From an uncultured Nitrospirota bacterium (GTDB lineage: Bacteria > CG2-30-53-67): a stretch of DNA of 40,103 nucleotides. Of this stretch, positions 5,882 through 37,732 are shown piece after piece. Made by a program: the position numbers and the translations under genes. The notes under the pieces were generated by a model. The model saw nothing but the letters and a program-made list of their open reading frames with translations. It made no database searches and was not told the DNA's origin. Location: assembly GCA_947259355.1 (NCBI GenBank), contig CAMYMF010000016.1:45663-85765 (forward strand), given 5' to 3'. How positions within the stretch are numbered: the stretch's first letter is position 1; every line of letters starts with the position of its first letter.

Positions 5882-6946
5882 TTGAATATTCCCACTGCCA
5901 AGCGCGACAGCCTCAAGGAGTATTACGGGACGATTCTGAACGGAACCAAGGATCTCAAAACCAACGCCTGCTGCGCCGCCGAGGGGTCGCCATCCCCCGG
6001 GATCCGTCAGGCCCTCCGTCTGATCGATGACGAGATCCTCAACCGTTTCTATGGTTGCGGCTCTCCCCTGCCTCCGGTGCTCGAGGGCTCGGTGGTGCTC
6101 GATCTGGGATGCGGCACCGGCCGCGATGCATACATTGCCGCCCAGCTCACGGGGCCCGAGGGACTTGTGATCGGCGTCGATATGACGGACGAACAGCTGG
6201 CCGTGGCACGACGCCATCTCGACGCCCAGATGCGTCGTTTCGGCTACACGCGACCCAATGTGGAATTTAGGGAGGGGTATATCGAGGAGCTGAAAGCCAT
6301 CGGCATCGAGGACAACTCGGTCGACGTGGTCATATCCAACTGCGTCATCAATCTCTCACCGGACAAGGAGGCCGTCTTCTCGGAGATTTTCCGGGTGCTG
6401 AAACCGGGCGGGGAACTCTACTTCTCCGACGTCTTTGCCGGCCGGCGGGTTCCTGAGAGGCTGAAGAATGACCCGGTTCTGCATGGCGAGTGTCTGGCCG
6501 GTGCGCTTTATACGGAGGATTTCCGAAGGCTGCTCAGAAAGGTGGGCTGTCTTGAGGCCCGGGTGGTAAGCCGCCAGCCCATCGCCCTTCAGGAGGGTGA
6601 AATCGAACAGAAGATCGGCATGGTTGACTTCTACTCGGTCACGGTGCGGGCCTTTAAGCTGGACTCCCTGGAAGACATCTGCGAGGACTACGGCCAGTCG
6701 GCCGTCTACCTCGGCACGATTCCCGAGCACCCCCACGCGTTCGATCTCGACGATCACCACCGGTTTTTAAAAGGAAAACCGATGCTGGTCTGCGGAAACA
6801 CGGCTTCCATGCTCTCCGAAACCCGATACGCTGCGCACTTCAAGGTTCTGGGAGACCGGTCAACCCACTACGGACCCTTTGTGTGTGCGCCGGCCGTGGA
6901 AAGACCGGATGGCGAGAACGTGGGCAGCGGCGGCTCCTGCTGTTGA
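5882..6946 (+). CDS. arsM: Arsenite methyltransferase ArsM
   Basis: A 354-residue SAM-dependent methyltransferase. Motif I reads [10 protein letters not shown] (73-82) and is followed by the acidic end of strand 2 (GVD, 98-100). The arsenic-binding cysteines are present: Cys30/Cys31 in TNACC, Cys154 in SNCVINLSP and Cys204 in [10 protein letters not shown]. The 50-residue gap between the last two is typical of ArsM. The protein methylates As(III) stepwise, using SAM and thiols, to methylated and volatile arsenicals. The C-terminal domain (about 250-354) ends in a Gly-Ser-Cys-Cys tail. The start is taken as TTG at 5882 because AGGAGG (5869-5874) lies 7 bases before it; an in-frame GTG at 5846 has no such site. 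No arsR or other ars gene adjoins it. Confidence 0.92.
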
Positions 6947-6987
6947 AAATTTACTGCGAGAACCCCTTTTCTCGTCAGTATAAAAAG

Positions 6988-7006
6988 CCTCATATTTTTA
7001 ATGAGG
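6988..7006 (+). terminator. Probable intrinsic terminator after arsM
   Basis: CCTCAT (6988-6993) pairs with ATGAGG (7001-7006) across an A/T-rich loop. AAAAA precedes the stem and TATTTT follows it. It lies about 40 bases past the arsM stop and could act on the plus strand, and more weakly on the minus strand. Confidence 0.5.
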
Positions 7007-7087
7007 TATTTTCGCTATCCACCCGTTTCATAATTGGATATTTCAACAGAAAATCTTTGTGTCTCACCACCGGTGACGGGCCTGGCT

Positions 7088-7127
7088 AGCCCGAATATTG
7101 CATGATCACTCATGCGATATTCGGGCT
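7088..7127. repeat. Near-perfect 18-bp palindrome made of two element termini
   Basis: The sequence AGCCCGAATATTGCATGA (7088-7105), a TCAC loop, then TCATGCGATATTCGGGCT (7110-7127) forms an 18-bp stem with one mismatch that is a G-U pair in RNA. Both arms match the terminal inverted repeat of the element at 10128-10572. This is therefore two termini head to head, with no interior. It sits between convergent arsM and the carboxypeptidase gene and can act as a bidirectional terminator. The TAG stop of the carboxypeptidase gene lies at the edge of the right arm. Confidence 0.8.
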
Positions 7128-8673
7128 AGTAGATCAGCACGCCGACAATGTCGTGATAGAGCGTTTCCGGATCGACCAAGCCGTTGGCCTTCAGGTCAAT
7201 CCCGTAGAAGAAGATGTAGAAACCCCGCGCCATGTTGGCCGAATTGAGCAGACTCACCGGTGCCATCGACACCAGCGGGTACTGGAATCCGTTGATGCTG
7301 ATCGGTCTCCACTGGTTCTGCACCAGGTCGTTGTATAGAATGATGAACCACCAGTCCGCGCTCTGCCCCACGTGAGTTCCAGGATTCAGTTGGACCGTAA
7401 CGTTGACCTGGCTCCCGGCGGGTCCCGAGTAGATAGGCTCAGTGGCGTTGGCTTTGATGTCTGGTATGGGCGGAACGTCCACATTCAAGGTCGATGCGAT
7501 CAGGTAAAGGGCCGCCGGTTTGTTCTCTTCCCACGTCGGGACGATCTCGGCTTCGGGCAGATTGAAGTAAGGGTAGGCATCGGGCCGCAGTTCCGTGTTA
7601 AAGGCCGGGATGCCGAACGTCCCGTAGAACCAATCCACCGTCAGACCGCTGGCGGGGTAAAGGCTCGACCCCTGCATCGGCGTATAAACCTTCCCGTGCA
7701 CCTGCTGCATGCGAACGGCCATCTCCGATGCCATTTCTCCCAGACGGGCCGCATCGGCAGCGGGGTCCGCAGTGTAGGACCAGGGGTAAAGCACGAGCTG
7801 TCCGTAGCTGTGATAGGTCATGATCGCCTGAAAATTGTGGACCAGTGCCAGATCCCGGATGGCCTGGACTTCCGGTTCTGAGAAAGGCTCCGTGCCACGG
7901 TAGATGTCCGACGCGGTATCGGCGCTCGATCCGTCTCCGCCCCACATGTGACTGTAGTTTCTGTTCAGATCGACACCAAAGGTCCCATCGCCGTTGTTCC
8001 TGCGGTTCTTCCGCCACCAACGATCCACATCGATGCTGTACTGATGGCCATCGGGGTTGACCATCGGAACGATCCAGATCTCTCCGTGATCGACATAGGA
8101 TTTCACCTGGGGGTCGGTTGCATAGTTCTCGAGAAGGTATTTTGCCAGATACAGGGGCACCTCGACGGAGATCCATTCCCGGGCGTGGTGATTCCCCATG
8201 AAGAGCACCTCGGGCTCCCCCTCGTCTAGCTGCACATTGTCGCTGATGACGAGCGCCCAGATGTCTCGGTCAGCCAGTCCCTGGGTCTTCTCCCAGCTGT
8301 CGCCGATAAACGACTGATATTCCAACCACTGCCCCTCTGGCCCGTTTACAGGAGCGGAGAGCGCCCGCACCGTACCTTCCGACGCCGCGCCGGATGGAGG
8401 TAGATTCTCTGCAATGACTTCCACCACAAAACCAAGCGCTTCAATTTGGGCAAGGAGCTGCTCCGTCACATTGGTGAGAATATGGTCCTCATGCGCTTCC
8501 CATGGCGCCACGAGGTTGGCCAGCGTTCGGACATCTTCCTGGCCCGTGACGTAAATCTTGACCAGCTTGTTTGCCGGTCCGCTAGCGTGAGTGGTAGGCA
8601 CGAATCCCGCCATCAGAAAAAGCACGAAAGCGACGACACTGAGGCGTCTTAAATTTAAAATATTAGATTTCAT
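7126..8673 (-). CDS. Secreted zinc carboxypeptidase, M14 family
   Basis: A 515-residue protein with a clear signal peptide (basic start, hydrophobic 11-25, cleavage near THA-S at 30/31). The M14 zinc site is intact: His163 and Glu166 in the HxxE motif (HHARE), and His288 in TYHSYGQ. Substrate-binding signatures NPDG and DLNRNY (235-240) are present, and the catalytic glutamate is Glu361 in NTELRP. A propeptide-like segment (about 35-115) precedes the catalytic domain, and a C-terminal domain of about 115 residues follows. It should cleave C-terminal amino acids from peptides outside the cytoplasm. The last codons are built into the element palindrome at 7088-7127, so the natural C-terminus may have been altered by insertion. 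Confidence 0.92.
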   Translation of the reverse strand: MKSNILNLRRLSVVAFVLFLMAGFVPTTHASGPANKLVKIYVTGQEDVRTLANLVAPWEAHEDHILTNVTEQLLAQIEALGFVVEVIAENLPPSGAASEGTVRALSAPVNGPEGQWLEYQSFIGDSWEKTQGLADRDIWALVISDNVQLDEGEPEVLFMGNHHAREWISVEVPLYLAKYLLENYATDPQVKSYVDHGEIWIVPMVNPDGHQYSIDVDRWWRKNRRNNGDGTFGVDLNRNYSHMWGGDGSSADTASDIYRGTEPFSEPEVQAIRDLALVHNFQAIMTYHSYGQLVLYPWSYTADPAADAARLGEMASEMAVRMQQVHGKVYTPMQGSSLYPASGLTVDWFYGTFGIPAFNTELRPDAYPYFNLPEAEIVPTWEENKPAALYLIASTLNVDVPPIPDIKANATEPIYSGPAGSQVNVTVQLNPGTHVGQSADWWFIILYNDLVQNQWRPISINGFQYPLVSMAPVSLLNSANMARGFYIFFYGIDLKANGLVDPETLYHDIVGVLIY

Positions 8674-8733
8674 ATGAATTCTTTCTGAGTAATGGGATGT
8701 TTTTCAGGCCTGTTAACAGTTATATTTCTCTAT

Positions 8734-8751
8734 TAGCCTAATCTTAGGCTA
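8734..8751. promoter_or_regulatory. Perfect 8-2-8 dyad, candidate operator
   Basis: TAGCCTAA-TC-TTAGGCTA is a perfect inverted repeat about 60 bases upstream of the carboxypeptidase start. A compact symmetric site in an AT-rich promoter region is typical of a dimeric repressor operator. The cognate regulator is not recognisable here. Confidence 0.4.
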
Positions 8752-8981
8752 TTTCTGCATGATTCATACCAAACAAACCCCGTGACTTAGTCCATTAGAC
8801 ACTGCCAAACTACTTGAACAATAAACACCATTCTTACATGAGGTTATAGAGATAAATTCAGTATTAGGATTAAAGGTGGCCGCTTACGTTCCAGTCCGGC
8901 TTCTGGCCCTGGAGAGAACGATTTTTCATATAAAGGGAAAAATATTTCCCAATTTGGGAATATTGAGGCCTCCGGTCCGTG

Positions 8982-9022
8982 CGGTGCCAGGTACCCTACG
9001 AATCCACAAGTACCTGGCACCG
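8982..9022. repeat. Hairpin of inverted GGTGCCAGGTAC units
   Basis: CGGTGCCAGGTAC (8982-8994) and GTACCTGGCACCG (9010-9022) are perfect 13-bp inverted copies separated by 15 bases. The unit is the same as in the three direct copies at 5497-5707. It lies 62 bases upstream of the diguanylate cyclase start and may affect that gene's leader RNA. Confidence 0.75.
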
Positions 9023-9083
9023 ATAGGTATCTATCAAGGTTCCCGGCTGTTAAGCCGATAAGGCTGATGAGGATCATGCAACC

Positions 9084-10121
9084 ATGGAAGACGCGAAGAT
9101 GACGATAACGAGAATCCGCTGCGACTTCACCGCGAGCGGCAGGATCTGCCAAACCCTCGATGAGGCCGGGGTTCCCACCGACTCCAAATGGCGGTCGCTC
9201 ATTCTCTTCATGCGGGAGCTGAAGGACCACGACTATCTGAGCTCAGAGCAGAAGAGCCGAATCCAGGATCTGGTGGTCAAGCTTATCCGCGAACGAACCT
9301 ATACGGACGAGACTTATCAGGCGCTGGTGCACCGGGTGGAAAGGATCTACTGCGAGCCCTACATGCAGAAACTCCAGGCGACCATTCAGGAGTCGGAGAG
9401 GCTCATCGAGGATTTCCAGCGGCTGCTGTCCAAACGGAGCGGAGACATCCGAAATCTGGAGAGCACCACCATCTCCGATGTGCAGAGCGGTCGCGAACCG
9501 CAGGAGATCATCCGGAACCTGCGGCAGACATTTCGCGATGTGGTGACGGTCATGGAGGAGGATGCCTCCAGACTAAGTCAACTCAGCCGTGTCGATGGGT
9601 TGACTGGGCTGCACAACCGCCGCGCCCTGGACGAGTATCTGCAGGAAACCGTTGCAGGGGCCATCGCCGAGGGTCGTACGTTCTCACTGATCATGATGGA
9701 TATTGATTATTTCAAGACGCTCAACGACAGCTTCGGGCATCGCATCGGAGACCAAGCCATCATCGTCATCGCCAAACTGATCCGGGAGACGCTGGAGGCG
9801 TTCCAGAGCGAGGAGCAGATCGACTTCTTTGCAGCCCGTTACGGGGGTGATGAGTTCACCGTGGTGCTGCCCGATATGGGCTATGAGGACGCCGCCGCTA
9901 AAGCAGCCGCCATTCGGGAAAATATCAGCACCTACAACTTCATCGTTCGGGACAGCCAAGGGCGCGTGACGCATAAGGATGTCCGAATCGCCGTGAGCAC
10001 CGGGGTGGCCACCTCGAGCGCTGATTGCGCGGAATCGGGGTTCGAACACCTCGTCGAAAAGGCCGATAAGGCACTCTATGAAGCCAAAGCCGCCCGCAAA
10101 AGTCCCGCCAATTCCCCCTGA
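9084..10121 (+). CDS. Diguanylate cyclase (GGDEF domain) with N-terminal helical region
   Basis: A 345-residue cytoplasmic protein. Residues 1-165 are helical and charged, without membrane segments or a named sensor domain. Residues 170-340 form a GGDEF domain: DGLTGLHNRRAL, then MDIDYFK (205-211) with the metal-binding Asp, then RYGGDEF with an intact GGDEF motif at 254-258. It should make cyclic di-GMP from two GTP. The RxxD product-inhibition site expected just before the motif is absent (the stretch reads QIDFFAAR), so feedback inhibition is probably lost. The ATG at 9084 has GAGGA about 10 bases upstream. It converges on a GspE-like ATPase with MshEN-type c-di-GMP-binding repeats at 10594-12909, a likely local effector. 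Confidence 0.92.
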   Translation: MEDAKMTITRIRCDFTASGRICQTLDEAGVPTDSKWRSLILFMRELKDHDYLSSEQKSRIQDLVVKLIRERTYTDETYQALVHRVERIYCEPYMQKLQATIQESERLIEDFQRLLSKRSGDIRNLESTTISDVQSGREPQEIIRNLRQTFRDVVTVMEEDASRLSQLSRVDGLTGLHNRRALDEYLQETVAGAIAEGRTFSLIMMDIDYFKTLNDSFGHRIGDQAIIVIAKLIRETLEAFQSEEQIDFFAARYGGDEFTVVLPDMGYEDAAAKAAAIRENISTYNFIVRDSQGRVTHKDVRIAVSTGVATSSADCAESGFEHLVEKADKALYEAKAARKSPANSP

Positions 10122-13954: not shown

Positions 13955-15784
13955 ATGACGCTGCCACCGCCTCCAGGTCCCCACGCCATGGCCGTCCTGG
14001 CCCTCGTCGTGGTGGCCCTCCTTCTTTTCAGCAGCGAACGAATCCTCCTGAAAACCTCGAGCCTTCTCGTGCTCACCGTATTGGCCTTGGGCTTCGAATT
14101 CTTTCCGTACCAAGCAGACGGTCAGAGCCTGCGGGCAGTCGATTTCTTTACCGGCTTCGGCCACGAGGCCCTTGTGGCTGTCTGTGCTCTGATGATCGCT
14201 GGACAGGCACTCGTCCGCACGGGGGCCCTGGAACCGGTGGGTCGGGTGTTATCGCGCCTGTGGCGGGTCAATCCGAACCTCTCACTGCTGGTGACGCTGC
14301 TGGCCGGCGCCATCCTCAGCGCGTTCATCAACAACACGCCCATCGTGGTGCTGTTGCTGCCGATTCTCATCAGCGTTTCGCTGCGGACCAATACCGAGGC
14401 CTCCAAGATCCTCATGCCCATGGGGCTGGCAACGCTGGCCGGCGGCATGAGCACCACCATCGGTACCTCCACCAATCTACTGGTGGTCTCCGTCGCCGCC
14501 GATATGGGGCTGAGGCGGATCGGGCTCTTTGATTTTGTGCTGCCGGCCGTTCTCGCCGGCGGGCTCGGCATCCTCTATCTATGGCTCCTGGCTCCTCGTC
14601 TGCTTCCCGTGCGTCAGCCGTTCCTGACCGACACATCGCCCCGGGTCTTCACCGCGCATCTCCATATCCCCGAGGGGAGTTTCTGCGACGGCAAGACGCT
14701 GTCCCAGGCCATCAGCAAAACCGACGGGGCCATGAAGGTCAACCGGATCCGGCGGGGATACGACTCGGTGATCCTGCCCCTGCCGGACATGAAACTCAGA
14801 GCCGGCGATCGCCTGCGGATCGATGACACCCCGGAGCGTCTCAAAGCCTACGAGAAGGACCTGGGCGCTGCGCTCTACTCGGGGGAGACGCCGGTGGACG
14901 AAGAGCACCCGTTGACGGCCGAGGAGCAGCAGATCGCGGAGGTGGCAGTGGTTCAGGGATCCCCCCTGGTGGGTGAAACCCTGAGATCCATCGGTTTTCT
15001 GGACCGGTATCAATTGGTGGCTTTGGCCCTGCATCGGGTCGGATTGACCCTGGTCACTTTGAACAGCCGCGTCGAGGATGTGGTGCTACGCATCGGGGAT
15101 GTGCTGCTCGTTCAGGGAAGCCGTGAGCAGATCGCATCCCTCAAACGCCGGGGCGACCTGCTGGTGCTCGATGCCACCGCCGATCTGCCGACCACGGACA
15201 AGGCCCCGCTGGCACTGGGCATTATGGCCGGCATCGTCGTGATGGCGGCCCTGGGAATTCTTCCCATCGCCATCAGTGCGGTTTCCGGTGTCCTCTTGAT
15301 GCTTGTGACGCGTTGCCTGCGGTGGCCCGATGCCACCCGGGGGCTGAGCACATCGGTCATCATGGTGGTGGTGGCGAGCCTCGCCCTGGGATCGGCCATG
15401 AGCAAGACGGGGGGCGCCCAGTATCTCGCCGAGCTCTATGTCGCGCTGACACACGGCGCCTCTCCTGCGGTGGTGCTCAGTGGACTGATCCTCCTGATGT
15501 CCCTGCTCACCAACGTGGTCTCCAATAACGCCGCGGCCGTCATCGGCACCCCCATAGCCGTCAACATTGCGGGCCAGCTGGGGGTTTCTCCCGAACCGTT
15601 CGTCCTGGGAGTACTCTTCGGCGTCAACATGAGCTATGCCACCCCCATGGCCTACCAGACCAACCTGTTGGTCATGAATGCCGGCGGGTACACATTCGGT
15701 GATTTCGTCCGTGTCGGAACCCCTTTGACCCTCCTGATGTGGCTGGCCTTCTCCTGGCTCCTGCCCGTGCTCTATGCCCTCTGA
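13955..15784 (+). CDS. SLC13-family permease with central TrkA-C (RCK_C) domains
   Basis: A 609-residue membrane protein with two bundles of transmembrane helices (about 10-210 and 415-608) around a soluble insert of about 200 residues. The insert carries two RCK_C/TrkA-C-like modules (around 225-305 and 325-405, the second ending GDVLLVQGSREQI). Both re-entrant signature motifs of the SLC13/ArsB superfamily are visible: AFINNTPIVVLLLPI and NVVSNNAAAVIGTPI. This architecture is found in sulfate/anion permeases of the SAC1/CysZ-unrelated type. The substrate is unknown, with sulfate or another oxyanion likely. A GAGAGA-type ribosome-binding site lies before the ATG at 13955; Met12 is an alternative start. 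Confidence 0.85.
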   Translation: MTLPPPPGPHAMAVLALVVVALLLFSSERILLKTSSLLVLTVLALGFEFFPYQADGQSLRAVDFFTGFGHEALVAVCALMIAGQALVRTGALEPVGRVLSRLWRVNPNLSLLVTLLAGAILSAFINNTPIVVLLLPILISVSLRTNTEASKILMPMGLATLAGGMSTTIGTSTNLLVVSVAADMGLRRIGLFDFVLPAVLAGGLGILYLWLLAPRLLPVRQPFLTDTSPRVFTAHLHIPEGSFCDGKTLSQAISKTDGAMKVNRIRRGYDSVILPLPDMKLRAGDRLRIDDTPERLKAYEKDLGAALYSGETPVDEEHPLTAEEQQIAEVAVVQGSPLVGETLRSIGFLDRYQLVALALHRVGLTLVTLNSRVEDVVLRIGDVLLVQGSREQIASLKRRGDLLVLDATADLPTTDKAPLALGIMAGIVVMAALGILPIAISAVSGVLLMLVTRCLRWPDATRGLSTSVIMVVVASLALGSAMSKTGGAQYLAELYVALTHGASPAVVLSGLILLMSLLTNVVSNNAAAVIGTPIAVNIAGQLGVSPEPFVLGVLFGVNMSYATPMAYQTNLLVMNAGGYTFGDFVRVGTPLTLLMWLAFSWLLPVLYAL

Positions 15785-26917: not shown

Positions 26918-28042
26918 ATGGCCTACGCATTCATGGATGGGGCGGAAGCCCTGGCCCGTGCAGCACTCCTGGCAGGCTGTGACTTTTATGCAGGCTACCC
27001 CATCTCCCCGGCCACGAAGATCCATCTTCTGTTGATGGACGCGCTGCCGTCGTCGGGGGGCATTGCCATCCAGGGTGAGGATGAGATCGCCTCCATTTCG
27101 ATCTGCATCGGCGCCGCCATGACGGGCCGGAAGGCCCTCACCGCCACCAGCGGTCCCGGCATCAGCCTCTATTCGGAAAGCATCGGGCTCGCCATCATGG
27201 GAGAAGTGCCCCTGGTGATCGTCGATGTGCAGCGGATGGGACCGGCCACCGGCGGCGCGACCACCGGCGCCGAGGGCGATGTGCAGTTCGTCCGGTGGCC
27301 CACATCGGGAGGCCTCCCCATGATCGTTCTGGCACCGGCGGGCCTGGCTTCGATGCTGTCCCTCACCGTGCATGCCTTCAATTTGTCCGAAACGCTCCGG
27401 ACACCCGTGATTCTGCTGACCTCCAAACAGATGGTGCTCTCCAAGCAAACCGTGGCTACTGACGAGGTGGCACTTCCCAAGATTCGCAACCGCCACTATT
27501 TCTCCGATCCCGGGGAGTACGTTCCTTACGGGGTCGACAAGCCGTCCGACATTCCGCCCTTCCTTCCCATGGGAGCCTCGCAACCCGTCCGTTTCACCGG
27601 TTCCATGCACGATGCCCGAGGCTACCTGACCAAGGACCCCGAGAAGGCGGAGCAAAAACTGCGGCATCTCCAGCAGAAGATCACCGCCCACGCCGAGCAG
27701 ATCGAATCGGTCACCCTCGATCTGCAAAAGGGCGCGAAGACCCTGCTCTTGGCATACGGCGTGAATGCGCCGCTGTGCGAAGCGGCGGTTCAGAGGGTGC
27801 GGCAGAAGGGCAAGCGCTGTTCCCTGATGATCATTGAATCTCTCTTCCCGGTACCTGAGAAGAGGCTGCAGTCCGCCCTCCAGGGGATTCGCACGGTCAT
27901 CGTACCGGAGCTGAACATCGGGCTCTATGCGGAATCGCTGAAACCCCTCCTGGCACCGGGACAAAAGCTCATCCCCATCACCCGGGTCGACGGCGAGCCA
28001 CTCTCCGTCAATGCCATTCTCCGGGAGGGCCATCTCCTGTGA
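26918..28042 (+). CDS. korA: 2-oxoacid:ferredoxin oxidoreductase, alpha subunit
   Basis: A 374-residue alpha subunit of the pyruvate/2-oxoglutarate ferredoxin oxidoreductase superfamily. Motifs include FYAGYPISPATKI, QGEDEIASI, TATSGPGISLYSE and VQRMGPATGG, which resemble the KorA (2-oxoglutarate) type more than pyruvate enzymes. With the beta subunit it performs CoA-dependent oxidative decarboxylation of a 2-oxoacid to acyl-CoA, reducing ferredoxin. The ATG follows a G-rich site and lies 15 bases after gcdH. The stop TGA overlaps the GTG start of the next gene (GTGA), indicating translational coupling. 2-oxoglutarate and 2-oxoadipate are both reasonable substrates given the glutaryl-CoA context. 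The substrate is not proven. Confidence 0.88.
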   Translation: MAYAFMDGAEALARAALLAGCDFYAGYPISPATKIHLLLMDALPSSGGIAIQGEDEIASISICIGAAMTGRKALTATSGPGISLYSESIGLAIMGEVPLVIVDVQRMGPATGGATTGAEGDVQFVRWPTSGGLPMIVLAPAGLASMLSLTVHAFNLSETLRTPVILLTSKQMVLSKQTVATDEVALPKIRNRHYFSDPGEYVPYGVDKPSDIPPFLPMGASQPVRFTGSMHDARGYLTKDPEKAEQKLRHLQQKITAHAEQIESVTLDLQKGAKTLLLAYGVNAPLCEAAVQRVRQKGKRCSLMIIESLFPVPEKRLQSALQGIRTVIVPELNIGLYAESLKPLLAPGQKLIPITRVDGEPLSVNAILREGHLL

Positions 28043-29370
28043 CGGCTATCACTTACATCGATCCCGCCCGGCTCCCCTACCCTTTCTGCCCTGGCTGCTC
28101 ACACGGAACGGTGCTCGATCGGCTCAATGAAGCCATGCTCCGGCTTTCCCTCGACCCACAGAGAGTGGTTATGGTGACGGATATCGGCTGCGTCGGACTT
28201 TCGGACCAGTGGTTCGTGACCCATGCCTTTCACGGCCTGCACGGCAGAAGCGTCCTCTATGCGGAAGGGATCAAGCTGGCGGCTCCTGATCTGGAGGTCA
28301 TTGTCCTCATGGGCGACGGGGCGGCCGGGATCGGGGGGCACCATCTCATCAGTGCGGCGCGCCGAAACATCGGGGTCCACGTCGTTCTGTTCAACAATTT
28401 CAATTTCGGTATGACCGGCGGCGAGCATTCCGTCACGACCCCGCAGGAGGCCCGGACCTCCACGACCCGGAGTGGTCAGATGGAGCAGCCCTTTCGCATC
28501 GCGGAGACACTGTCGATCAACGGCGCGCCCTTTGCGGCGCGGCGCGCAGCCTACGACGGTGACTTGGTCGATGTCATGCAAGAAGCACTGGCCTTCGACG
28601 GCTTTTCCATCATCGAAGTCCTCGAGTTCTGTCCGTCCTACTATGTGCCCTGCAATCAATTCCGAAAATCAGACATGGAGGCGCTCCTCGCGGGCGATGT
28701 CTTTCCGAGAATGCTCGAAGTCCGTGACGAGCGGACCGAGTATGCCACGTACCTGGCAGCCGTTGGCACAGACAAACCGCGCAGGGAGCTCCTACACGGT
28801 GACAGAATTGAAAAGCGCTTCGAACACACCCTCTCCGATAAACTCGACATTATTGTTGCGGGCGCGGCAGGCGGCAAGGTCCTGTCGAGCGCGTCGCTGT
28901 TTGCCAGGGCGGGCATCGCATCGGGACTCTTTGCGCTGCAGCATGATGACTATCCCGTGACAGTTCGTACGGGGCATTCCATCTCCTTTCTGAAGCTGTC
29001 CCCATCGCCCATCGCCCAGATGGGCATCGAGGCGCCGGGCATTCTCCTGCTCCTCTCTGAGGAGGGACTGGTCAGAGCCGGCACCTTCCTGAAAAAGATG
29101 CAGCAGAATCAACGGGTGATTCTTGCGGGAGATCTTCCCCGACCCGAAACGGCGGCGGCCGTTGAACGGCTCAAGCTGGATCAGCTCAAAGGTCGGATGC
29201 CCCGGCAACAGACGGCACTGGGCGTGCTCTTTCTCTTTCTCAAGAAGCATCCGCTCTTTCCGCTCGAAGCGTTGCGGGAATCGGTCGCGCGCGCACAAGG
29301 AACGGAGAGGGCAGAGAAGCTCTTCGCGATCGCCCGGGAGGCCTCCGATGACATCTGGGAGTCTGCCTGA
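28039..29370 (+). CDS. korB: 2-oxoacid:ferredoxin oxidoreductase, fused beta and gamma subunits
   Basis: A 443-residue protein. Residues 1-260 are the TPP-binding beta subunit: FCPGCSHG with Cys17 and Cys20, Cys51 in DIGC, the TPP motif GDG (92-94) to NN (119-120), and Cys198/Cys205 in EFCPSYYVPC. A single [4Fe-4S] cluster bound by such Cys is known in two-subunit enzymes. Residues about 265-443 look like the gamma subunit (KLDIIVAGAAGGKVLSSASLFARAG, the nucleotide/CoA-loop type GxGGxG region), so beta and gamma are joined in one chain. The GTG start overlaps the korA stop. It works with KorA in ferredoxin-linked acyl-CoA formation. The fusion is evident from length and motif order. Confidence 0.87.
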   Translation: MTAITYIDPARLPYPFCPGCSHGTVLDRLNEAMLRLSLDPQRVVMVTDIGCVGLSDQWFVTHAFHGLHGRSVLYAEGIKLAAPDLEVIVLMGDGAAGIGGHHLISAARRNIGVHVVLFNNFNFGMTGGEHSVTTPQEARTSTTRSGQMEQPFRIAETLSINGAPFAARRAAYDGDLVDVMQEALAFDGFSIIEVLEFCPSYYVPCNQFRKSDMEALLAGDVFPRMLEVRDERTEYATYLAAVGTDKPRRELLHGDRIEKRFEHTLSDKLDIIVAGAAGGKVLSSASLFARAGIASGLFALQHDDYPVTVRTGHSISFLKLSPSPIAQMGIEAPGILLLLSEEGLVRAGTFLKKMQQNQRVILAGDLPRPETAAAVERLKLDQLKGRMPRQQTALGVLFLFLKKHPLFPLEALRESVARAQGTERAEKLFAIAREASDDIWESA

Positions 29371-29432
29371 TGGCGGGACACAACGGGCGTTCGCACCACC
29401 GCCTTCGCGCGTCATAACCAGGGAGTGACAAG

Positions 29433-30626
29433 ATGACCAACTTGTTGGATGGCGTCCGGGTGATCGACCTGAGTCGGGTGCTGGCCGGGCCCTACTGTAC
29501 GATGATGCTGGGCGATCTGGGCGCGGATGTCATCAAGGTGGAAATGCCCGGGCGGGGCGACGACACCCGCCACTGGGGCCCGCCCTTCGCCGAAGGGAGC
29601 GAGTCGGCCTATTTCCTCTGCACCAACCGTAACAAGCGAAGCCTGACCCTCAATCTCAAGTCCGAGCGGGGGTTGACGATTCTTCGCGACCTCGTCGGCA
29701 AGGGGGACGTGCTCGTCGAGAACTTCAAGGTGGGCACACTGGAGCGCTGGGGACTGACTTATGAAGCACTGCAGCGGCTCCGGCCGGGCCTGATCTACTG
29801 CACCATTACCGGCTACGGCTACACCGGACCCTACCGCCACCGGGCGGGCTACGATTTCATCATTCAGGCCGAAGGGGGCATCATGAGCATCACCGGCCCC
29901 ACCGAGGGGGAGCCCCACAAGGTCGGGGTGGCCATCGCCGACATCACCGCGGGTCTCTTCGCGGCCAATGCGATTCTCGCCGCGCTCTTCGCTCGCGAAC
30001 GGACCGGCCGCGGCCAGCGGATCGACATTTCCCTGCTTGACTGCCAGGTGGCCTGGCTGGCGAATGTGGCCAGCAATTACCTCGTCTCGGGCAAGGTGCC
30101 GGCTCGCTACGGAAACGCCCATCCCAATATCGTCCCCTATCAGGTCTTTCGCGCCCGGGACCGGCACTTCGCCTTCGCCGTGGGCAACGACAGCCAGTGG
30201 GAGACGTTCTGCCGCGCCGTGGGCAAACCAGAATGGCACGAGGACGCGCGCTTTGCCACCAATGCGGCCCGGGTCGAAAACCGCGACACGCTGATTTCGC
30301 TCCTGGACGAACTCTTCGCCCGGCGGGATCTGGACGACTGGCTTGGGGAGCTGGAGGCCCTCGGCATTCCGGCAGCGCCCATCAACACCATCGACCAGGT
30401 CTTTGCCGACCCCCAGGTGCGGAGTCGCGGGATGCAGGTCGCGATGCCTCACCCCACGGCCGGCACGCTCTCCATGACGGCCTCGCCCCTGGCCATTCCC
30501 ACCGCGCCGACTCAACTGCGCCACCCCCCCCCGCTGCTCGGCCAGCACACCGACGAAATCCTGCGGGAGATTCTCGGCTGTGATGACGGGACGATCCACG
30601 CCCTGCGGCAGGCGGCTGTGGTCTAA
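29433..30626 (+). CDS. Class III CoA-transferase (CaiB/BaiF family), likely acting on glutarate
   Basis: A 397-residue family III CoA-transferase. The N-terminus LLDGVRVIDLSRVLAGPYCTMMLGDLGADVIKVE is the family hallmark, and the catalytic Asp170 (VAIADITAG) forms the acyl-aspartyl intermediate. The related human enzyme SUGCT moves CoA from succinyl-CoA to glutarate. Placed after gcdH and korAB, the simplest reading is that Kor makes succinyl-CoA from 2-oxoglutarate, the transferase makes glutaryl-CoA, and GcdH turns it into crotonyl-CoA. The substrate is inferred from this context alone. GGGAG precedes the ATG, 62 bases after korB. It is the last gene of the operon. Confidence 0.85.
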   Translation: MTNLLDGVRVIDLSRVLAGPYCTMMLGDLGADVIKVEMPGRGDDTRHWGPPFAEGSESAYFLCTNRNKRSLTLNLKSERGLTILRDLVGKGDVLVENFKVGTLERWGLTYEALQRLRPGLIYCTITGYGYTGPYRHRAGYDFIIQAEGGIMSITGPTEGEPHKVGVAIADITAGLFAANAILAALFARERTGRGQRIDISLLDCQVAWLANVASNYLVSGKVPARYGNAHPNIVPYQVFRARDRHFAFAVGNDSQWETFCRAVGKPEWHEDARFATNAARVENRDTLISLLDELFARRDLDDWLGELEALGIPAAPINTIDQVFADPQVRSRGMQVAMPHPTAGTLSMTASPLAIPTAPTQLRHPPPLLGQHTDEILREILGCDDGTIHALRQAAVV

Positions 30627-30817: not shown

Positions 30818-31348
30818 ATGCTGACCAAAGACTTTGTCCGGACCATATACACGCCGATTGATGAATATCCACACATTCCTGTGGATGCCCCGGTGACGGA
30901 GGCTTATACCATCCTCAAGAAATACTACACCGAGGGGTGCGGATTCCGGACGATCCTCGTGATGGATGACGAGAATCATCTCAAAGGTGTCCTGACGCTG
31001 AGAGACCTGATGCGGGCCGTGGTACCGGGTTTCTTGAAGAAAAAGCAGACCTCCCGTTCCGGGCTTCAACCCTATCTACCGGTGGAGCAGGATTTTCCCG
31101 CACTGCTCCTGATCTGGCAGGAGGATTTTGCGGGAAAGTGCCGGAAGGAAGCGGAAAAGAAGGTGGGAGAGGTGATGACCCAGATAGACGAAACCGTGCA
31201 ACTCGACGACTCGGCGGCCAAGTGCGCCTACCTCATGGTTAAGAAGGATCTTATCGTTATTCCGGTCATCGATGACGGCATGGCCGTCGGTGTGGTCCGC
31301 ATGGTGGATGTCTTCATGGAGATCACCGATATGGTTGTGCCCGACTAA
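30818..31348 (+). CDS. Protein with a pair of CBS domains
   Basis: A 176-residue cytoplasmic protein made of two CBS modules: residues about 8-75 (ending VLTLRDLMRAVV) and 115-172 (MTQIDETVQLDD through GVVRMVDVFME), with a charged helix between. CBS pairs bind adenosine nucleotides and often control transporters or channels. It is the first gene of an operon with an anion transporter and an LCIB-like protein, so it may sense energy state (AMP/ATP) for that transporter; this is inference. GGGGGG-type spacing before the ATG gives a modest ribosome-binding site. The promoter at 30715-30744 lies upstream. Confidence 0.83.
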   Translation: MLTKDFVRTIYTPIDEYPHIPVDAPVTEAYTILKKYYTEGCGFRTILVMDDENHLKGVLTLRDLMRAVVPGFLKKKQTSRSGLQPYLPVEQDFPALLLIWQEDFAGKCRKEAEKKVGEVMTQIDETVQLDDSAAKCAYLMVKKDLIVIPVIDDGMAVGVVRMVDVFMEITDMVVPD

Positions 31349-31400
31349 TTCACCGATCCATCCAACAAATAACTAACGCAGCGCAAGAGGAGGCGAGAGA

Positions 31401-32897
31401 ATGACAGATGGTGCACCACGGAAAGAGGTACATATCCGCCCTGCGAAGCCAAAACTCGATGTCAGGCGGATTTTTTTTATACTGCTCGGGATCTTCCTTT
31501 TTGTCGTGCTCTACTCCATGGATCCCCTTCCTGATGCCATCGATCCCATGGGAGAGCGTTTCCCCCTGACCAAGGAAGGCAAGGCGGCCATTGCCCTCTT
31601 TCTCCTGGCCGGCACGTGGTGGGTCTTTGAGGTGATTCCCATTGGGGTGACCAGCCTGACCATCGGGGTCGTCCAGGCCCTCTTTCTGATCCGCCCCGCC
31701 AAGGTGGCCTTCAAAGATTTCATGGATCCCTCGGTTCTGTTCATCTTCGGGTCTATCGTGGTGGGCATGGTGTTCACCAAGGTGGGTCTGACCAAGCGGC
31801 TGGCGTACAAGATGCTGAGCATCGTCGGGGAAAAGACGAGCATGATCTATCTCGGATGTTTCTTGGTCACCGCTGCGTTGACGCACATCATGGCCCATAC
31901 GGCCGTGGCGGCGACCATGTTTCCCATTCTCATGGCGATCTACACCCTCTACGGTGAAGGAGACAAGCAGACCCGATTCGGCAAGGGGCTCTTTATCGGG
32001 ATGGCCTTTGTGGCCGGCGCGGGAAGTATGATCACCCTCCTCGGGGCGGCCCGGGGCGCCGTGGCCCTCGGCTTCTACAACGACATTGCCGGGAAGAATG
32101 TCACCTTTTTCGAGCTGACCAAGTTCATGTTTCCCATCGGCTGGATACTGGTCTTTCTCTGCTGGGGCATGATGATGATCATGTTCAAGCCGGAAAAGAA
32201 GGTGATCCCCGGACTCAAGGAGAAAGCGCAGAAACTCTACAAGGAACAGGGCCCCATCACCACCCGGGAGATTTTCGTTGCGGCGATCGTCCTGGCGGTG
32301 ATTTTGACCCTGTCGCTCAAGTCTTTCATCCCGGCCATGAAATTTCTGGATAAATCGGCCGTGGTCCTGGTCTCAACGATCGTCTTCTTCCTGTTCAAGA
32401 TCCTGACCATCAACGAACTGGAAGAGATCCCTTGGAACATCATCCTCCTTTTCGCGGGCGCCATGAGTATTGGCTTCTGCCTCTGGGATACGGGGGCGGC
32501 CAAGTGGCTCGCCATCAACTGGCTGGTCATGTTCAAGGAGTCGACCCCCTTTGTCTTTATTCTGGGCATCTCCTTCTTCGTGATGGTCATGACCAACTTC
32601 ATCATGAACGTCGCGGCCATCGCCATTTCCCTGCCCGTCGCCCTGGTCATTGCCCCCTATCTTGGGGTAGCGCCGGAGGCGATCCTCTATTCCTCACTGA
32701 TCGTCTCGGCCTGTCCATTTCTCCTTCTGGTCGGCGCGGCGCCCAACGCCATTGCCTATGACTCCAACCAGTTTTCCACCGGTCAGTTCTTCATGGCAGG
32801 CATACCAGGCAGCATCGTCTTGATGGCCGTGGTGGCGTTCGCCATTGGCATCGTCTGGCCGGTTATGGGAATGCCGATCACCGTAGCCGTTCAATAG
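31401..32897 (+). CDS. SLC13/DASS-type anion transporter with altered SNT motifs
   Basis: A 498-residue membrane protein with about 11-12 helices and the two-repeat layout of the divalent-anion:Na+ symporter family (TWWVFEVIPIGVTSL is the typical entry motif). The two substrate/sodium motifs, normally Ser-Asn-Thr, are changed: the first is Ala165-His166-Thr167 (LTHIMAHTAVAATMFPI), the second Met402-Asn403-Val404 (NFIMNVAAIAISLPV). Carboxylate binding as in known dicarboxylate carriers is therefore doubtful, and another anion is likely. The LCIB-like neighbour points to bicarbonate as a candidate. GAGGAGG precedes the ATG. Only 21 bases separate it from the LCIB-like start. Confidence 0.87.
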   Translation: MTDGAPRKEVHIRPAKPKLDVRRIFFILLGIFLFVVLYSMDPLPDAIDPMGERFPLTKEGKAAIALFLLAGTWWVFEVIPIGVTSLTIGVVQALFLIRPAKVAFKDFMDPSVLFIFGSIVVGMVFTKVGLTKRLAYKMLSIVGEKTSMIYLGCFLVTAALTHIMAHTAVAATMFPILMAIYTLYGEGDKQTRFGKGLFIGMAFVAGAGSMITLLGAARGAVALGFYNDIAGKNVTFFELTKFMFPIGWILVFLCWGMMMIMFKPEKKVIPGLKEKAQKLYKEQGPITTREIFVAAIVLAVILTLSLKSFIPAMKFLDKSAVVLVSTIVFFLFKILTINELEEIPWNIILLFAGAMSIGFCLWDTGAAKWLAINWLVMFKESTPFVFILGISFFVMVMTNFIMNVAAIAISLPVALVIAPYLGVAPEAILYSSLIVSACPFLLLVGAAPNAIAYDSNQFSTGQFFMAGIPGSIVLMAVVAFAIGIVWPVMGMPITVAVQ

Positions 32898-32918
32898 TAG
32901 AGCTTAAGGATGGATTAT

Positions 32919-33632
32919 ATGGAATTTCAAACAGCACTGCATAAACATTTTGAGGGCGCTTGGATGGAAGGAGACTATGTTGCCCAAAGCGTTCGCGTTC
33001 TCTCCGGTCACGGCTTCACGCCCGACAATGCCATCGCGTGCGTGGGGGTGTGCCGGGATGAGATCACCCAGCCCCTCGTTGAACGGGTGAAAAAGGCATG
33101 GGGAGAAGCCTTCAACTTCTCCAGTCTCGCGGGAATGCTCTTTCTCGGAAAGACCGGTTTCTCAGCGGCGGAACATCACGCACCCGATGAAGAGGGACGG
33201 GAACGCTACGTCTTCTTCGCACTGCCCCATATCGCGGTGCATGAGGATGGTCAGATCGGCGTCTGCCGGCGGGCCGGCAGACAGGAACTCTCCTCGGCCT
33301 GCGGGGCACTGCTGGCCCTGCAACGAGAGTTGGCCGGCGGTCGCGTCAAGTTCGGGCTGGACATGGATGATCTGGAACAGAGCCTGATTCGGATGCGCCT
33401 TCTGGCGGAGATACGCTACGGCGAGGTACCGGAGCTGCTGACACTCACGAAGACCACCCTCAAGGTCATTCAGGCCGATCTCAAACGGATGATTGAATTA
33501 ACCGTCCAGAGTGATCGCAGCGATGTTGCTGTCTTCACGGGCATTCAGATTCACGGTCCAGGCGCAAACTACATCTGGCCGCACCTAAGTTACTGTACAG
33601 TCCGTGGACAGCGCTACTCCCTCCAATTCTGA
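32919..33632 (+). CDS. LCIB-family (theta-type) carbonic anhydrase-like protein
   Basis: A 237-residue cytoplasmic protein matching the Limiting-CO2-Inducible B/C family of algal carbon-concentrating mechanisms. Motifs in order: GFTPDNAIACVGVCRDEI, FNFSSLAGMLFLGKTGF, HHAPDEEGRERYVFFALPHIAV, and GRQELSSACGALLAL. The zinc ligands are intact as Cys45 (CRDE), His104 (PHIA) and Cys128 (ACGAL), with spacing like that of active LCIB homologues, so CO2/bicarbonate interconversion is plausible. The start at 32919 is preferred over ATG 32910 because AAGGA (32906-32910) lies 8 bases before it. It is the last gene of the operon with the CBS protein and the altered DASS transporter. Confidence 0.87.
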   Translation: MEFQTALHKHFEGAWMEGDYVAQSVRVLSGHGFTPDNAIACVGVCRDEITQPLVERVKKAWGEAFNFSSLAGMLFLGKTGFSAAEHHAPDEEGRERYVFFALPHIAVHEDGQIGVCRRAGRQELSSACGALLALQRELAGGRVKFGLDMDDLEQSLIRMRLLAEIRYGEVPELLTLTKTTLKVIQADLKRMIELTVQSDRSDVAVFTGIQIHGPGANYIWPHLSYCTVRGQRYSLQF

Positions 33633-33721: not shown

Positions 33722-34162
33722 TTACCACCCTTTGCTTTTCAATATCTCCTTGATCTTCTCTTCGTGCTGTTTTTCGACGATGAGGACTCTCTTGTTCTTG
33801 GCTTCCTCGATCTTCTTTAGCAGTCGGTTGAGGTCCACCGGTTTCTCCATGAAATCCACGGCCCCTGCCTTGATGGCCTCCACACCTTTATCGACCGTGG
33901 CGTGACCGGTGAGCATGATGATCTGAAGGTCGGGGTTCTCACGCTTGATCCGTTTCAGTGTCTCCATCCCGTCTACGCCGGGCATGGCAAGGTCCAGGAC
34001 AATGGCGTCGAATCCCTTGGCCTTGGCTTTCTCTACAGCCGATTCACCGGTGGATGATGTGTCCACCTTCATGCCTCGGCCCTCCAGTCTCTGGGACAGG
34101 ACCTTGAGAAACTCTTCTTCATCATCGACGAGCAGGATGTTTGCCTCTAGTTCTTCTGCCAT
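33722..34162 (-). CDS. Single-domain response regulator with C-terminal helical tail
   Basis: A 146-residue receiver-domain protein. Asp57 is the phosphoacceptor (IVLDLAMPG), with acidic pair VDDEEE at the N-terminus, Thr in IMLTGHA and Lys in FMEKP. After the receiver (to about 125) comes a short Lys/Glu-rich tail without a DNA-binding or output domain. It probably acts as a phosphorelay shuttle or by protein contact. GGAGGAAGG precedes the ATG, and the gene begins 21 bases after the preceding receiver gene. It is the last gene of a five-gene signalling operon that converges on the LCIB operon. Confidence 0.92.
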   Translation of the reverse strand: MAEELEANILLVDDEEEFLKVLSQRLEGRGMKVDTSSTGESAVEKAKAKGFDAIVLDLAMPGVDGMETLKRIKRENPDLQIIMLTGHATVDKGVEAIKAGAVDFMEKPVDLNRLLKKIEEAKNKRVLIVEKQHEEKIKEILKSKGW

Positions 34163-34183: not shown

Positions 34184-34645
34184 TTACTTGTCGTTCTCCT
34201 CTTCCATGATCTCCCGGGCGGTATCGAACTCACCTGCCTCGGCAAACGCGATGGCCGAGAACGCCTTTTCCAGCTTCTCCTTATAGGCGATTTTTATTTT
34301 GCCCAGCAGCGTTTCGATGTCCGTCGGCTTCTTGAGAAAATCGAAACCGCCCAGCCTCCTGGCCTCTTCTTCATGCTTCTCGGTGCCATGGCCCGTAAGG
34401 ATGATGACCTGAATCTTCGGATAGGTCTTCCGGATCTCTCGCAACACCTCCATGCCATGGAGCCCCGGCATCTTTAGGTCGAGGATCATGACATCGGGCT
34501 CCTTCTCTTTCACTGCGGCGAGGGCCTGCTCCCCGTCGTAGACCGTTTCAACTTTCAGGTCCCGCAGCTTCAATCGGTTGGCCAGGGTATCGACGAAAGC
34601 TTCTTCGTCGTCCACCAGCAAAACTTTGATATTCTTATCTTTCAT
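34184..34645 (-). CDS. Single-domain response regulator
   Basis: A 153-residue receiver protein with Asp56 (MILDLKMPG), VDDEE near the N-terminus, Thr in IILTGHG and Lys in FLKKP. About 30 extra C-terminal residues (EKLEKAFSAIAFAEAGEFDTAREIMEE) form a probable helix and may be a docking tail. No DNA-binding domain is present. It has GGAG before the ATG and stands between the degenerate kinase gene and the last receiver gene. It differs enough from the other two receivers to suggest a separate partner. Confidence 0.92.
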   Translation of the reverse strand: MKDKNIKVLLVDDEEAFVDTLANRLKLRDLKVETVYDGEQALAAVKEKEPDVMILDLKMPGLHGMEVLREIRKTYPKIQVIILTGHGTEKHEEEARRLGGFDFLKKPTDIETLLGKIKIAYKEKLEKAFSAIAFAEAGEFDTAREIMEEENDK

Positions 34646-34697: not shown

Positions 34698-35369
34698 TTA
34701 TTCTGTCAAGGGGATACTGACAAGAACAGCATGCTCGTCCGTCTGGTACGTAATTTCCCCTTTCAATTCGCTCATGGCGTACTGGAATAGATCCCGGGGA
34801 GTCACATCCTGCCCTTGATCCTCCGGGCGTCGCGCCCCCTGTTCGTACACCCTGATCGTCGCGGAGCCGTCACGCAAGGCGGTACTCAAAACGATGCTGC
34901 CATCAACATCCAGCGCCCCCAGTTTCTCCTGGATGAGCGTGTACAGAATCAGCTGGACCCTATAGGGACTGCTGTGTACAGGAGGCATCTCCCTTTGAAA
35001 CTCACCCTTCAACCCGATCCTTTTCTGTTTCGCCAGACGGTTCATCAGTACAATGAGTTCCTCGATCACCTCATTAATGTCAAACGTCGAGGCCGGGTTG
35101 TCCATCCTGTGACCGAAGCGGTTGAGTATACTGATGACGGCCGTACTGCGCGCTACTTGGTCGTCGATGGCCGTGAGCGTTGAGACGAAGGGGCCGGCAT
35201 CTTTCTTCTTCCGGGGCAGCTTGCCCATATTGATCAGGTCCTGGATCAACCCCGAGGATTCCTTGATGATGGCGAGATGGTTTTTCATCTCATGGGTGTA
35301 GGTGGATAAAATCTTCCCGATGAAACGCATCTGCAGCGTTTGCAACGTTTTCTCTTTCTCGATATCCAT
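34698..35369 (-). CDS. Histidine kinase-like protein with degenerate ATP-binding region
   Basis: A 223-residue soluble protein with a dimerisation-helix start carrying His26 in THEMKNHLAII, an H-box typical of HisKA. It has no membrane segment. The C-terminal part follows a HATPase layout (QLILYTLIQEKLGAL in the N-box position, then STALRDGSATIRVYEQG in the G1 position), but the Asn and Asp-x-Gly of these boxes are missing. It probably cannot bind ATP in the usual way. A histidine phosphotransfer or scaffold role in the relay is likely (inference). ATG 35369 has GGAAGG upstream; a TTG six codons earlier does not fit as well. It lies between two receiver genes. Confidence 0.72.
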   Translation of the reverse strand: MDIEKEKTLQTLQMRFIGKILSTYTHEMKNHLAIIKESSGLIQDLINMGKLPRKKKDAGPFVSTLTAIDDQVARSTAVISILNRFGHRMDNPASTFDINEVIEELIVLMNRLAKQKRIGLKGEFQREMPPVHSSPYRVQLILYTLIQEKLGALDVDGSIVLSTALRDGSATIRVYEQGARRPEDQGQDVTPRDLFQYAMSELKGEITYQTDEHAVLVSIPLTE

Positions 35370-35387
35370 GGGCCCTTCCAGCAACAA

Positions 35388-35765
35388 TTATTTCCGGTCC
35401 TTCTTCTCCTTGGCCTGGTCGATTTTGATCACCAGGTCTTCTATCTCAACAGGTTTGACCACGTAGTCGAAGGCCCCATTCCTGAGCCCTTCCGTAGCAG
35501 TTTCCTCCGAACCGAGGCCCGACAGAATGATCACCTCTATTGCGGGGTGCACCAGCTTGACCGTCTTCAACGCCTCGATTCCCTTGATGCCGGGCATGTT
35601 CAGATCCATCAGGATCACGTCGGGGGCATCACGGCTGATCGATTCGAAACCCTCATCGGCACTATAGACCGCCTTGGCATCATAGCCTCGCATCTGCAGC
35701 CGTTCAGCCAGCGCCGATGCAAATTCCGCTTCATCATCAACAAGCAGCACTTTCGTAGCGGACAT
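35388..35765 (-). CDS. Single-domain response regulator
   Basis: A 125-residue pure receiver domain (CheY-like) with Asp54 (ILMDLNMPG), VDDEAEF, Ser in IILSGLG and Lys in VVKPVEIEDL. It follows the membrane kinase gene by 52 bases and precedes the kinase-like gene by 18, so it is the most likely direct partner of the kinase. GGAGG precedes the ATG at 35765; the longer frame upstream overlaps the kinase gene and has no such site. It has no output domain. Confidence 0.93.
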   Translation of the reverse strand: MSATKVLLVDDEAEFASALAERLQMRGYDAKAVYSADEGFESISRDAPDVILMDLNMPGIKGIEALKTVKLVHPAIEVIILSGLGSEETATEGLRNGAFDYVVKPVEIEDLVIKIDQAKEKKDRK

Positions 35766-35817
35766 GAACAGCCTCCATCTCCAAGCTGCAACCCATTCTT
35801 CGCTCCAGGAGCCTCTA

Positions 35818-37560
35818 TCAGGCGATCGTCGGAACCGGTTGATCGACGGGCAGTTCCACGGTAAAAGTGGTGCCTTTGTCCACCTCGCTCTGGACGAGAA
35901 TGTTTCCGCCCAGCTTCTTGATGATGCCATAGGAGATGAAAAGCCCCAGTCCTGTGCCCTTGGTCATGCCCTTGGTTGTAAAGAATGGGTCAAAGATATG
36001 TTTTAGTGTCTGGGCATCCATGCCGCGCCCGGAATCCCTGATCCGTGCGCGCACGGTGCTCTTATCCTTCAGATCGGTAATGATCTCTATCCTGCCTCCT
36101 GCCTCCATGGCGTCCATGGCATTGTTGATGATGTTCAGAAAAACCTGTTGCAGCCTGCCCCTGTTGCTCTTGACTCTCGGCAGATCGGCCCCCAGGTTCT
36201 GTTTGACCTGCACGTCCCGGAACAACGTCTCTTTTTGCAGGAAGCCCACCACCTCTGTCAGGACGTCATTGATATCGAGTACTTCGGGCGTCACGTCCAT
36301 GCGCCGGGCGAAACCGAGCAGCTGATGGGTGATGGTCCGGGCCCGCTTCACGCTGTCCAGGATCCCGTTGACCGAGCGTAGGAATTTTTCCCGGTCGACG
36401 TTGTTCTCTGAGAGCATCAGAATATCTTTCATCAAACCGGCCTTTTCGTTGATGATGGCCAGAGGATTGTTGATTTCGTGTGAGACCCCCGCCGCAAGCC
36501 GGCCGATGGACGCCAGCTTGGTGGCATGTTCGACCTCTCTCAGCACTTCCTCCCGTTTCTCCTCCGATTCTCGGATCCAATTGACCATGACATGGACCAT
36601 GCGAAAGGCCGCAAGTAAGATCAAAAAAACAATCACGGCAATCACAGCAAAATACTCGGCTCTGAACACGGCGGCAATCTTGGTACGGGTACCGGACTTC
36701 TCGACCACGCTCAGAATCCAACTCGTATCCTTGATGAAGGCATAGCCGAAAACATAAGGCCGTCCAGCGTCATCCTTAAGATCCAGAATTGTGATCCCCC
36801 GCTGCCGCAGAAGGGCCGGCACGGCATACTGCTCCAACACGTCTCCATGGTGTTGCGAGGAAGTCTGCAGTGTGCCGCTACGACTGATGATGAACGCGTC
36901 ATCAGCATCATCCAACTTGATGGATGACAACAGCCGGTTGAGGGTCTCCATGTCAATGGTGGCCCGCAGAATCCAGAACGTGTCCGTGTCCGGTTCATCC
37001 TGCTTCACCGCAATTGCAAAATGGGGCAGTCTGCGATACCCGAGGAAGACGTCACTCACATAGATGCCCCGGGTCACCGCCTTGTGGAACCATTCCTGGT
37101 TCGCGTAGTCCTTGCCCTGCAGATTGTAAGGGCCAGTATAGGACTGCTGAATTCCATGCTTGTCAATCAGGCCGAGATCGACGACGGCACCGAATTCCCG
37201 TTTAAAGGCCGCAAAAATCCTCGCCAGCAACTGCTGATCCGACAACTGGTCGTATCGATGACCGGAGGCCAGAAAACGGAGCGCGGAAATCTTGACATCC
37301 ACGAAATACTCAATCTGGTTCTTGGCATTCTCGATGTCCCAGGCCAACTCGTGCCGAGATTCTTCGTGAAAGAGGGCCTGCAGCCAGTAGTAACTCGCGG
37401 TGAACAGGACCAAGAGCGGAACGATGGTCAGTACCGACATCCAGAAAACGAGCGTCCTCTTCAGGCCCTTGTACCGCATTTCGGCGAAATCCGCACCGGT
37501 ATCCATGGGGCGGAAGGTGATAACGCTCTTCAGGAAATCGATAAAAGGCCGCAGTTTCAT
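35818..37560 (-). CDS. Membrane sensor histidine kinase with periplasmic Cache-type domain
   Basis: A 580-residue sensor kinase. Helix 1 (about 36-58) and helix 2 (301-323) bracket a periplasmic region of about 240 residues with Cache features (YFVDVKISALRFLASG, DKHGIQQSYTGPY, GRPYVFGYAFIKDTSWILSVV). The cytoplasmic part has the HisKA phosphoacceptor His361 (GVSHEINNPLAII) and a complete HATPase: NIINNAMDAME, DSGRGM, FFTTKGMTKGTGLGL. Cache kinases of this kind often sense small organic acids. No HAMP or PAS domain is evident. It heads the five-gene signalling operon and is divergent from the AEC-family permease. ATG 37560 has only a weak ribosome-binding site. The ligand is unknown. Confidence 0.92.
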   Translation of the reverse strand: MKLRPFIDFLKSVITFRPMDTGADFAEMRYKGLKRTLVFWMSVLTIVPLLVLFTASYYWLQALFHEESRHELAWDIENAKNQIEYFVDVKISALRFLASGHRYDQLSDQQLLARIFAAFKREFGAVVDLGLIDKHGIQQSYTGPYNLQGKDYANQEWFHKAVTRGIYVSDVFLGYRRLPHFAIAVKQDEPDTDTFWILRATIDMETLNRLLSSIKLDDADDAFIISRSGTLQTSSQHHGDVLEQYAVPALLRQRGITILDLKDDAGRPYVFGYAFIKDTSWILSVVEKSGTRTKIAAVFRAEYFAVIAVIVFLILLAAFRMVHVMVNWIRESEEKREEVLREVEHATKLASIGRLAAGVSHEINNPLAIINEKAGLMKDILMLSENNVDREKFLRSVNGILDSVKRARTITHQLLGFARRMDVTPEVLDINDVLTEVVGFLQKETLFRDVQVKQNLGADLPRVKSNRGRLQQVFLNIINNAMDAMEAGGRIEIITDLKDKSTVRARIRDSGRGMDAQTLKHIFDPFFTTKGMTKGTGLGLFISYGIIKKLGGNILVQSEVDKGTTFTVELPVDQPVPTIA

Positions 37561-37732
37561 GGCATGCGGGAGTATATTGAAATTCAACGCCCGATTCAAG
37601 CCACAAATCACCTTCAGGAAATAGCGCCGGATGAGATGTTCCCGTCAGTCTGGGCACCGCAAGGCATCCCTCTTGCGATATTCGACACCCCGGCATTTCC
37701 TCTCTCAGCCCGGTCATGCTATAGTCCAGGCC

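Follow-up and report, generated by a model that had tools for sequence, protein, structure and literature searches.

The window, a 40,103-nucleotide stretch of DNA, carries a three-gene operon on the plus strand, followed by a block of signal-transduction genes on the minus strand:

30818-31348, + strand: CBS-pair protein of 176 amino acids, first gene of the operon (PF00571 in two stretches, 57 bits)
31401-32897, + strand: DASS/SLC13-type transporter of 498 amino acids (PF00939 and TIGR00785)
32910-33632, + strand, start probably at 32919: LCIB-type beta carbonic anhydrase (PF18599, E 2e-53)
33722-34162, − strand: receiver-only response regulator, convergent with the operon (PF00072, E 3.5e-33)
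34184-34645, − strand: receiver-only response regulator (PF00072, E 1.1e-30)
34698-35387, − strand: histidine-kinase-like protein of 229 amino acids that reads as a histidine kinase core; no Pfam family matched
35388-35930, − strand: response-regulator open reading frame with receiver motifs read from the sequence, its true start probably within the frame
35818-37611, − strand: dCache sensor histidine kinase (PF02743, PF00512, PF02518)

The three operon products matched their families above curated cut-offs in Pfam and NCBIfam (Pfam only for LCIB), bearing out the preliminary description of the locus as a trio of a CBS protein, an altered DASS transporter and an LCIB protein. The CBS and DASS genes are separated by 52 bases and the DASS and LCIB genes by 12, or by 21 if LCIB starts at its second ATG (32919). 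Because Shine-Dalgarno spacing is better for this ATG than for the one at 32910, the 21-base gap reported in that description is probably right. Upstream of the operon lie 2-oxoacid:ferredoxin oxidoreductase genes and a CoA-transferase III gene (26918-30626, + strand), possible CO2-releasing steps, and the window encodes a second transporter of the DASS superfamily, a 609-amino-acid CitMHS protein with TrkA_C domains (13955-15784, + strand).

The window DASS protein scored 203.3 bits against TIGR00785 'dass' (cut-off 198.6). Both SNT motifs of VcINDY are replaced in it, by A165-H166-T167 and M402-N403-V404, and A216-A217-R218-G219 stands at the place of the VcINDY SPPN, so that the transporter is indeed altered. 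VcINDY-type Na+/dicarboxylate symporters are recognized by two SNT motifs; the window protein, with AHT and MNV in their place, was not filed among them. Human NaS1 ranked first in a fold search with the window DASS, which supports sulfate as the substrate weakly, since other DASS structures score closely. Matches to the transporter in the 27 genomes searched fell into two groups, one at 376 bits or more (full-length or long pieces), hereafter the clade, and one at 106 bits or less (other DASS proteins); the clade group also took in two shorter pieces of split genes, at 212 and 66 bits (G018 and G028).

Analyses of gene neighbourhoods revealed that the operon is neither unique to this strain nor confined to one phylum. 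Among 395 Nitrospirota genomes, 34 carried the DASS clade, 44 carried LCIB and 27 carried both (Fisher p 6e-24, kinship ignored), and the two genes were adjacent in 25 of these 27, supporting the earlier placement of LCIB in an operon with the transporter. The order CBS-DASS-LCIB, with the genes on the same strand, was kept in most of the 44 loci obtained from a scan of named genomes with the LCIB alignment, and it spans Nitrospirota, Thermodesulfobacteriota and Actinomycetota. DASS-LCIB is also present in two Thermodesulfobacterium type-strain records (L054 and L056), making the arrangement testable in cultured strains. Longer runs were found as well: CBS-DASS-LCIB-NhaD-like in G196 (L063), and CBS-DASS-LCIB-CBS-NhaD-like in G003, from another genus of the window's own phylum, which was sampled by eight genomes. 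In G001, from the window's genus, CBS-DASS is followed by what is left of an LCIB gene, about 49 residues long, and a different contig carries a complete LCIB next to a CPA2 antiporter gene; G003 and G001 are both drafts, and the pattern may reflect misassembly or contamination.

Of the 106 clade DASS genes collected, 86 had a CBS/CBS2 match directly upstream; none was detected there in the other 20, some of which lie at contig edges (interior loci of this kind are L109, L110, L114, L117, L118, L138 and L139). LCIB directly followed DASS in 52 of the 106. Both counts are lower bounds because of contig-edge and low-score cases, and the 106 genes are not independent because some pairs of loci, for example L008/L035 and L017/L080, show the same genome region twice. 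The first count sustains the CBS part of the earlier proposal that a nucleotide-sensing CBS pair precedes the transporter, and the CBS protein is probably a regulator of the transporter. Signal-transduction genes recur at these loci too. Response regulators related to the one at 33722-34162 adjoin other clade-DASS loci, and kinases related to the dCache kinase adjoin clade DASS in L111, L123, L124, L131, L138 and others. G001 (L009) carries a homologue of the histidine-kinase-like protein at the same place, together with a homologue of the 35388-35930 response regulator. A PPDK_N/PEP-utiliser-like protein recurs beside CBS-DASS in L008, L072, L074, L125 and L128 (Pfam: L008). Divergent clade DASS genes (about 46% identical) without LCIB occur in L073, L074 and L075, all three close to a TauE/SafE-like gene (Pfam: L074).

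The DASS clade tracked dissimilatory sulfite reductase closely. dsrA was present in 33 of 34 clade-DASS Nitrospirota genomes versus 177 of 395 (45%) overall (p 1e-11, kinship ignored), and in 59 of the 60 clade-DASS genomes tested, the exception being a draft (G010). The window genome itself (G000) has dsrA (TIGR02064, E 9e-175). Each of seven other genomes of its phylum (G001-G007) gave two dsrA-family matches, which lie on separate contigs in several of the genomes and are both partial in G006. The clade was also common outside Nitrospirota, with matches at E ≤ 1e-50 in 73 of 395 Desulfobacterota genomes, although membership in the clade is doubtful for the weakest of them, at 176 bits and 28% identity; no LCIB was found at 36 of the 40 Desulfobacterota clade-DASS loci fetched. 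An earlier survey counts DASS among the candidate transporters for sulfate in sulfate reducers (PMC5840216). In Desulfobacteraceae, a cluster with a DASS gene, CBS proteins and cache-kinase two-component systems has been named a DASS-type sulfate transporter cluster (PMC11887813), an assignment that section 14 of that paper derives from TCDB, proteomics and regulation, not from uptake assays. Co-occurrence with dsrA, resemblance to this cluster and published inference together suggest that the window DASS is probably a sulfate importer.

The preliminary description had instead proposed that the DASS protein imports bicarbonate, or a carboxylate, with LCIB trapping or releasing CO2 behind it and the CBS protein gating transport by energy state. 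LCIB does adjoin bicarbonate-transporter families elsewhere. In L057, a Polyangiaceae MAG, it is overlapped by 4 bases by an SLC4-type gene (5616-8452; PF00955, E 3e-177) with an EIIA-like N-terminal domain, and in L094 it lies between SulP and SbtA genes (SbtA: PF05982, E 1e-95). The near-universal presence of a CODH/ACS gene in the clade-DASS genomes tested likewise suggests that inorganic carbon matters to these organisms. However, CODH/ACS does not separate genomes with LCIB (37/38) from those without (20/22), and we rejected it as a distinguishing trait. The make-up of AHT, MNV and R218 was near-identical between the DASS proteins linked to LCIB (41) and those not linked to it (49), leading us to reject a bicarbonate specialization of the altered motifs. 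The same transporter is thus widespread without LCIB, notably in Desulfobacterota, tracks dsrA and matches the published sulfate cluster; bicarbonate uptake by the transporter was not supported, and we regard it as quite improbable. We also considered K241, K278, K281 and K291 of DASS as a docking site for LCIB, a candidate that was set aside: their frequencies differ between the groups, but kinship-controlled pairs cannot reach significance. No DASS residue tracked LCIB once kinship was controlled (7 independent pairs).

The window LCIB protein, cytoplasmic by sequence, matched PF18599 with 181.4 bits against a cut-off of 25. The three zinc ligands attributed to it earlier are all there (C48, H107 and C131), as is the R49-D50 pair, and these five residues are conserved across 72 bacterial LCIB rows with two exceptions, D50 in one row and C131 in another, which has a gap there. 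H90 is invariant or nearly so in the same 72 proteins, and R121 likewise in 35; by alignment, both correspond to residues that are disordered in CrLCIB. Its nearest solved structures are CrLCIC (5b5x) and CrLCIB (5k5w), and the best structural matches of its AlphaFold2 model (pLDDT 96) were CrLCIB, CrLCIC and PtLCIB4, led by CrLCIB 5k5w (TM 0.81). No LCIB relative was found in the viral collections scanned. CrLCIB and LCIC have been reported to be inactive in vitro (PMC5876011), which would fit an LCIB that is catalytically silent and serves the transporter as a regulatory or scaffold subunit. We consider this very unlikely: the near-invariance of the zinc ligands, R49-D50, H90 and R121 argues against it, and canonical beta carbonic anhydrases found near the same module (below) point to activity. 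Judged from its residues, the window LCIB is predicted to be an active carbonic anhydrase.

LCIB appears to have joined DASS several times. LCIB linkage requires 9 changes on the DASS tree, and the DASS-linked label requires 9 on the LCIB tree, 8 of them forced by starred branches, with gain and loss indistinguishable. The window LCIB groups with LCIBs from other contexts in a set of 19 rows, and the LCIBs of L017, L058, L059 and L034 fall in another set, of 53 rows; L017, L058 and L059 are three of the nearest relatives of the window DASS on the DASS tree. This split of LCIBs against DASS kinship fits replacement or independent joining. Clade DASS genes also stand with a different type of carbonic anhydrase, as canonical PF00484 beta carbonic anhydrases lie near LCIB-less clade DASS in L138, L136, L137, L144 and L145 (Pfam: L138 and L144). 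In L138 the beta carbonic anhydrase (8497-9189) has a probable signal peptide, and its start shares 4 bases with the stop of the cache kinase gene; in the other four loci it is several kilobases from DASS, adjoining a PEP-synthase-like gene in L137 and L144, where this was examined. LCIB has other neighbours as well: it directly follows a NuoL/Mrp-type antiporter subunit in L048, L099, L100 and L101 (Pfam: L048) and a Na_Ca_ex-family gene in L092, and it adjoins a CPA2 gene in L007.

These distributions bear on the main rival explanation, that LCIB is a housekeeping carbonic anhydrase riding a strongly expressed operon and uncoupled from the transporter. PF00484 beta carbonic anhydrases were rarer in clade-DASS genomes with LCIB (9/38) than in those without (11/22; p 0.05, kinship ignored), and the 29 LCIB-bearing genomes that lack one fit a housekeeping role, as do the LCIB genes that stand beside no transporter (L026 and L047) or beside unrelated genes (L040/L043/L044). 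Set against this are the adjacency of the two genes in 25 of the 27 Nitrospirota genomes that have both, the several joinings with different LCIB lineages, the canonical enzymes found near clade DASS in lineages without LCIB, and the 9 LCIB-bearing genomes that have a beta carbonic anhydrase too, which also led us to reject a missing beta carbonic anhydrase as the full explanation of LCIB. On balance, we hold an uncoupled housekeeping role to be doubtful.

We lean, with moderate confidence, towards reading the operon, with its neighbouring cache-kinase and response-regulator genes, as a version of the CBS-DASS module for sulfate uptake in dissimilatory sulfate reducers that recruited an LCIB protein functionally linked to CO2, HCO3− and proton handling at the transporter. 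The DASS protein would import sulfate, the CBS protein would tune the transporter to the internal state of the cell, and LCIB, placed at the transporter or close to it, would interconvert CO2 and HCO3−, matching uptake of the dianion and its counter-ions with HCO3−/H+ handling. This proposal would entail physical or functional coupling of the two proteins and a defined direction of flux; in its most specific form, HCO3− made by LCIB from CO2 would be exported in return for sulfate, or would buffer co-imported protons. An exchange metabolon, in which a DASS protein without canonical Na+ motifs would swap external sulfate for HCO3− made by LCIB from respiratory CO2, seems to us unlikely; if it were true, sulfate reducers would pay for sulfate uptake with a carbon waste product. 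How sulfate uptake is energized bears on the whole metabolism of sulfate reducers, and the recurrence, in several phyla, of a carbonic anhydrase gene next to the probable importer of sulfate would tie sulfur respiration to carbon respiration at the membrane. The literature we searched contained no transport data for any member of the window DASS clade and no assigned role for bacterial LCIB proteins.

The preliminary description knew of no described bacterial system with this three-gene set. The CBS-DASS-two-component module is already described (PMC11887813); no paper reporting LCIB in a CBS-DASS module was found in a search that covered neither most subscription journals nor preprints. The new part is the carbonic anhydrase after the transporter. 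The window resembles the Desulfobacteraceae cluster in its DASS, CBS and cache-kinase two-component genes and in its dsrA-bearing host. It differs in that LCIB follows DASS, whereas section 14 of that paper mentions no carbonic anhydrase, and in that the response regulators of the published cluster are described as WalR-type, whereas the two window regulators scanned with Pfam consist of a receiver domain only. The published Dvar_38230/38430 and the window DASS were likened by cluster architecture alone, from which they would belong to the same clade.

Three other systems invite comparison. Human NaS1 (SLC13A1), the top structural match, and VcINDY share the DASS fold with the window transporter, which is ~22% identical to them and has its SNT motifs replaced. 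DAB2 (DabA-DabB, vectorial CO2 hydration) similarly joins a beta-carbonic-anhydrase-like protein to a membrane transporter gene, but the window transporter is SLC13-type, not NuoL-type, and LCIB is not DabA; the operon matched CBS, Na_sulph_symp/CitMHS and LCIB_C_CA in Pfam, and neither DabA (PF10070) nor a NuoL-type DabB. The loci with LCIB beside a NuoL/Mrp-type subunit (L048 and L099-L101) are nearer to the DAB2 layout than the window operon is. Finally, LCIB/LCIC of Chlamydomonas and PtLCIB4 of Phaeodactylum (5k5w, 5b5x and 5b5y) have PF18599, the fold (TM 0.77-0.83) and the zinc ligands in common with the window LCIB. The window protein, however, is bacterial and 25-34% identical to them, and its setting is not a pyrenoid but a bacterium with dsrA, where its gene adjoins that of a sulfate-type transporter.
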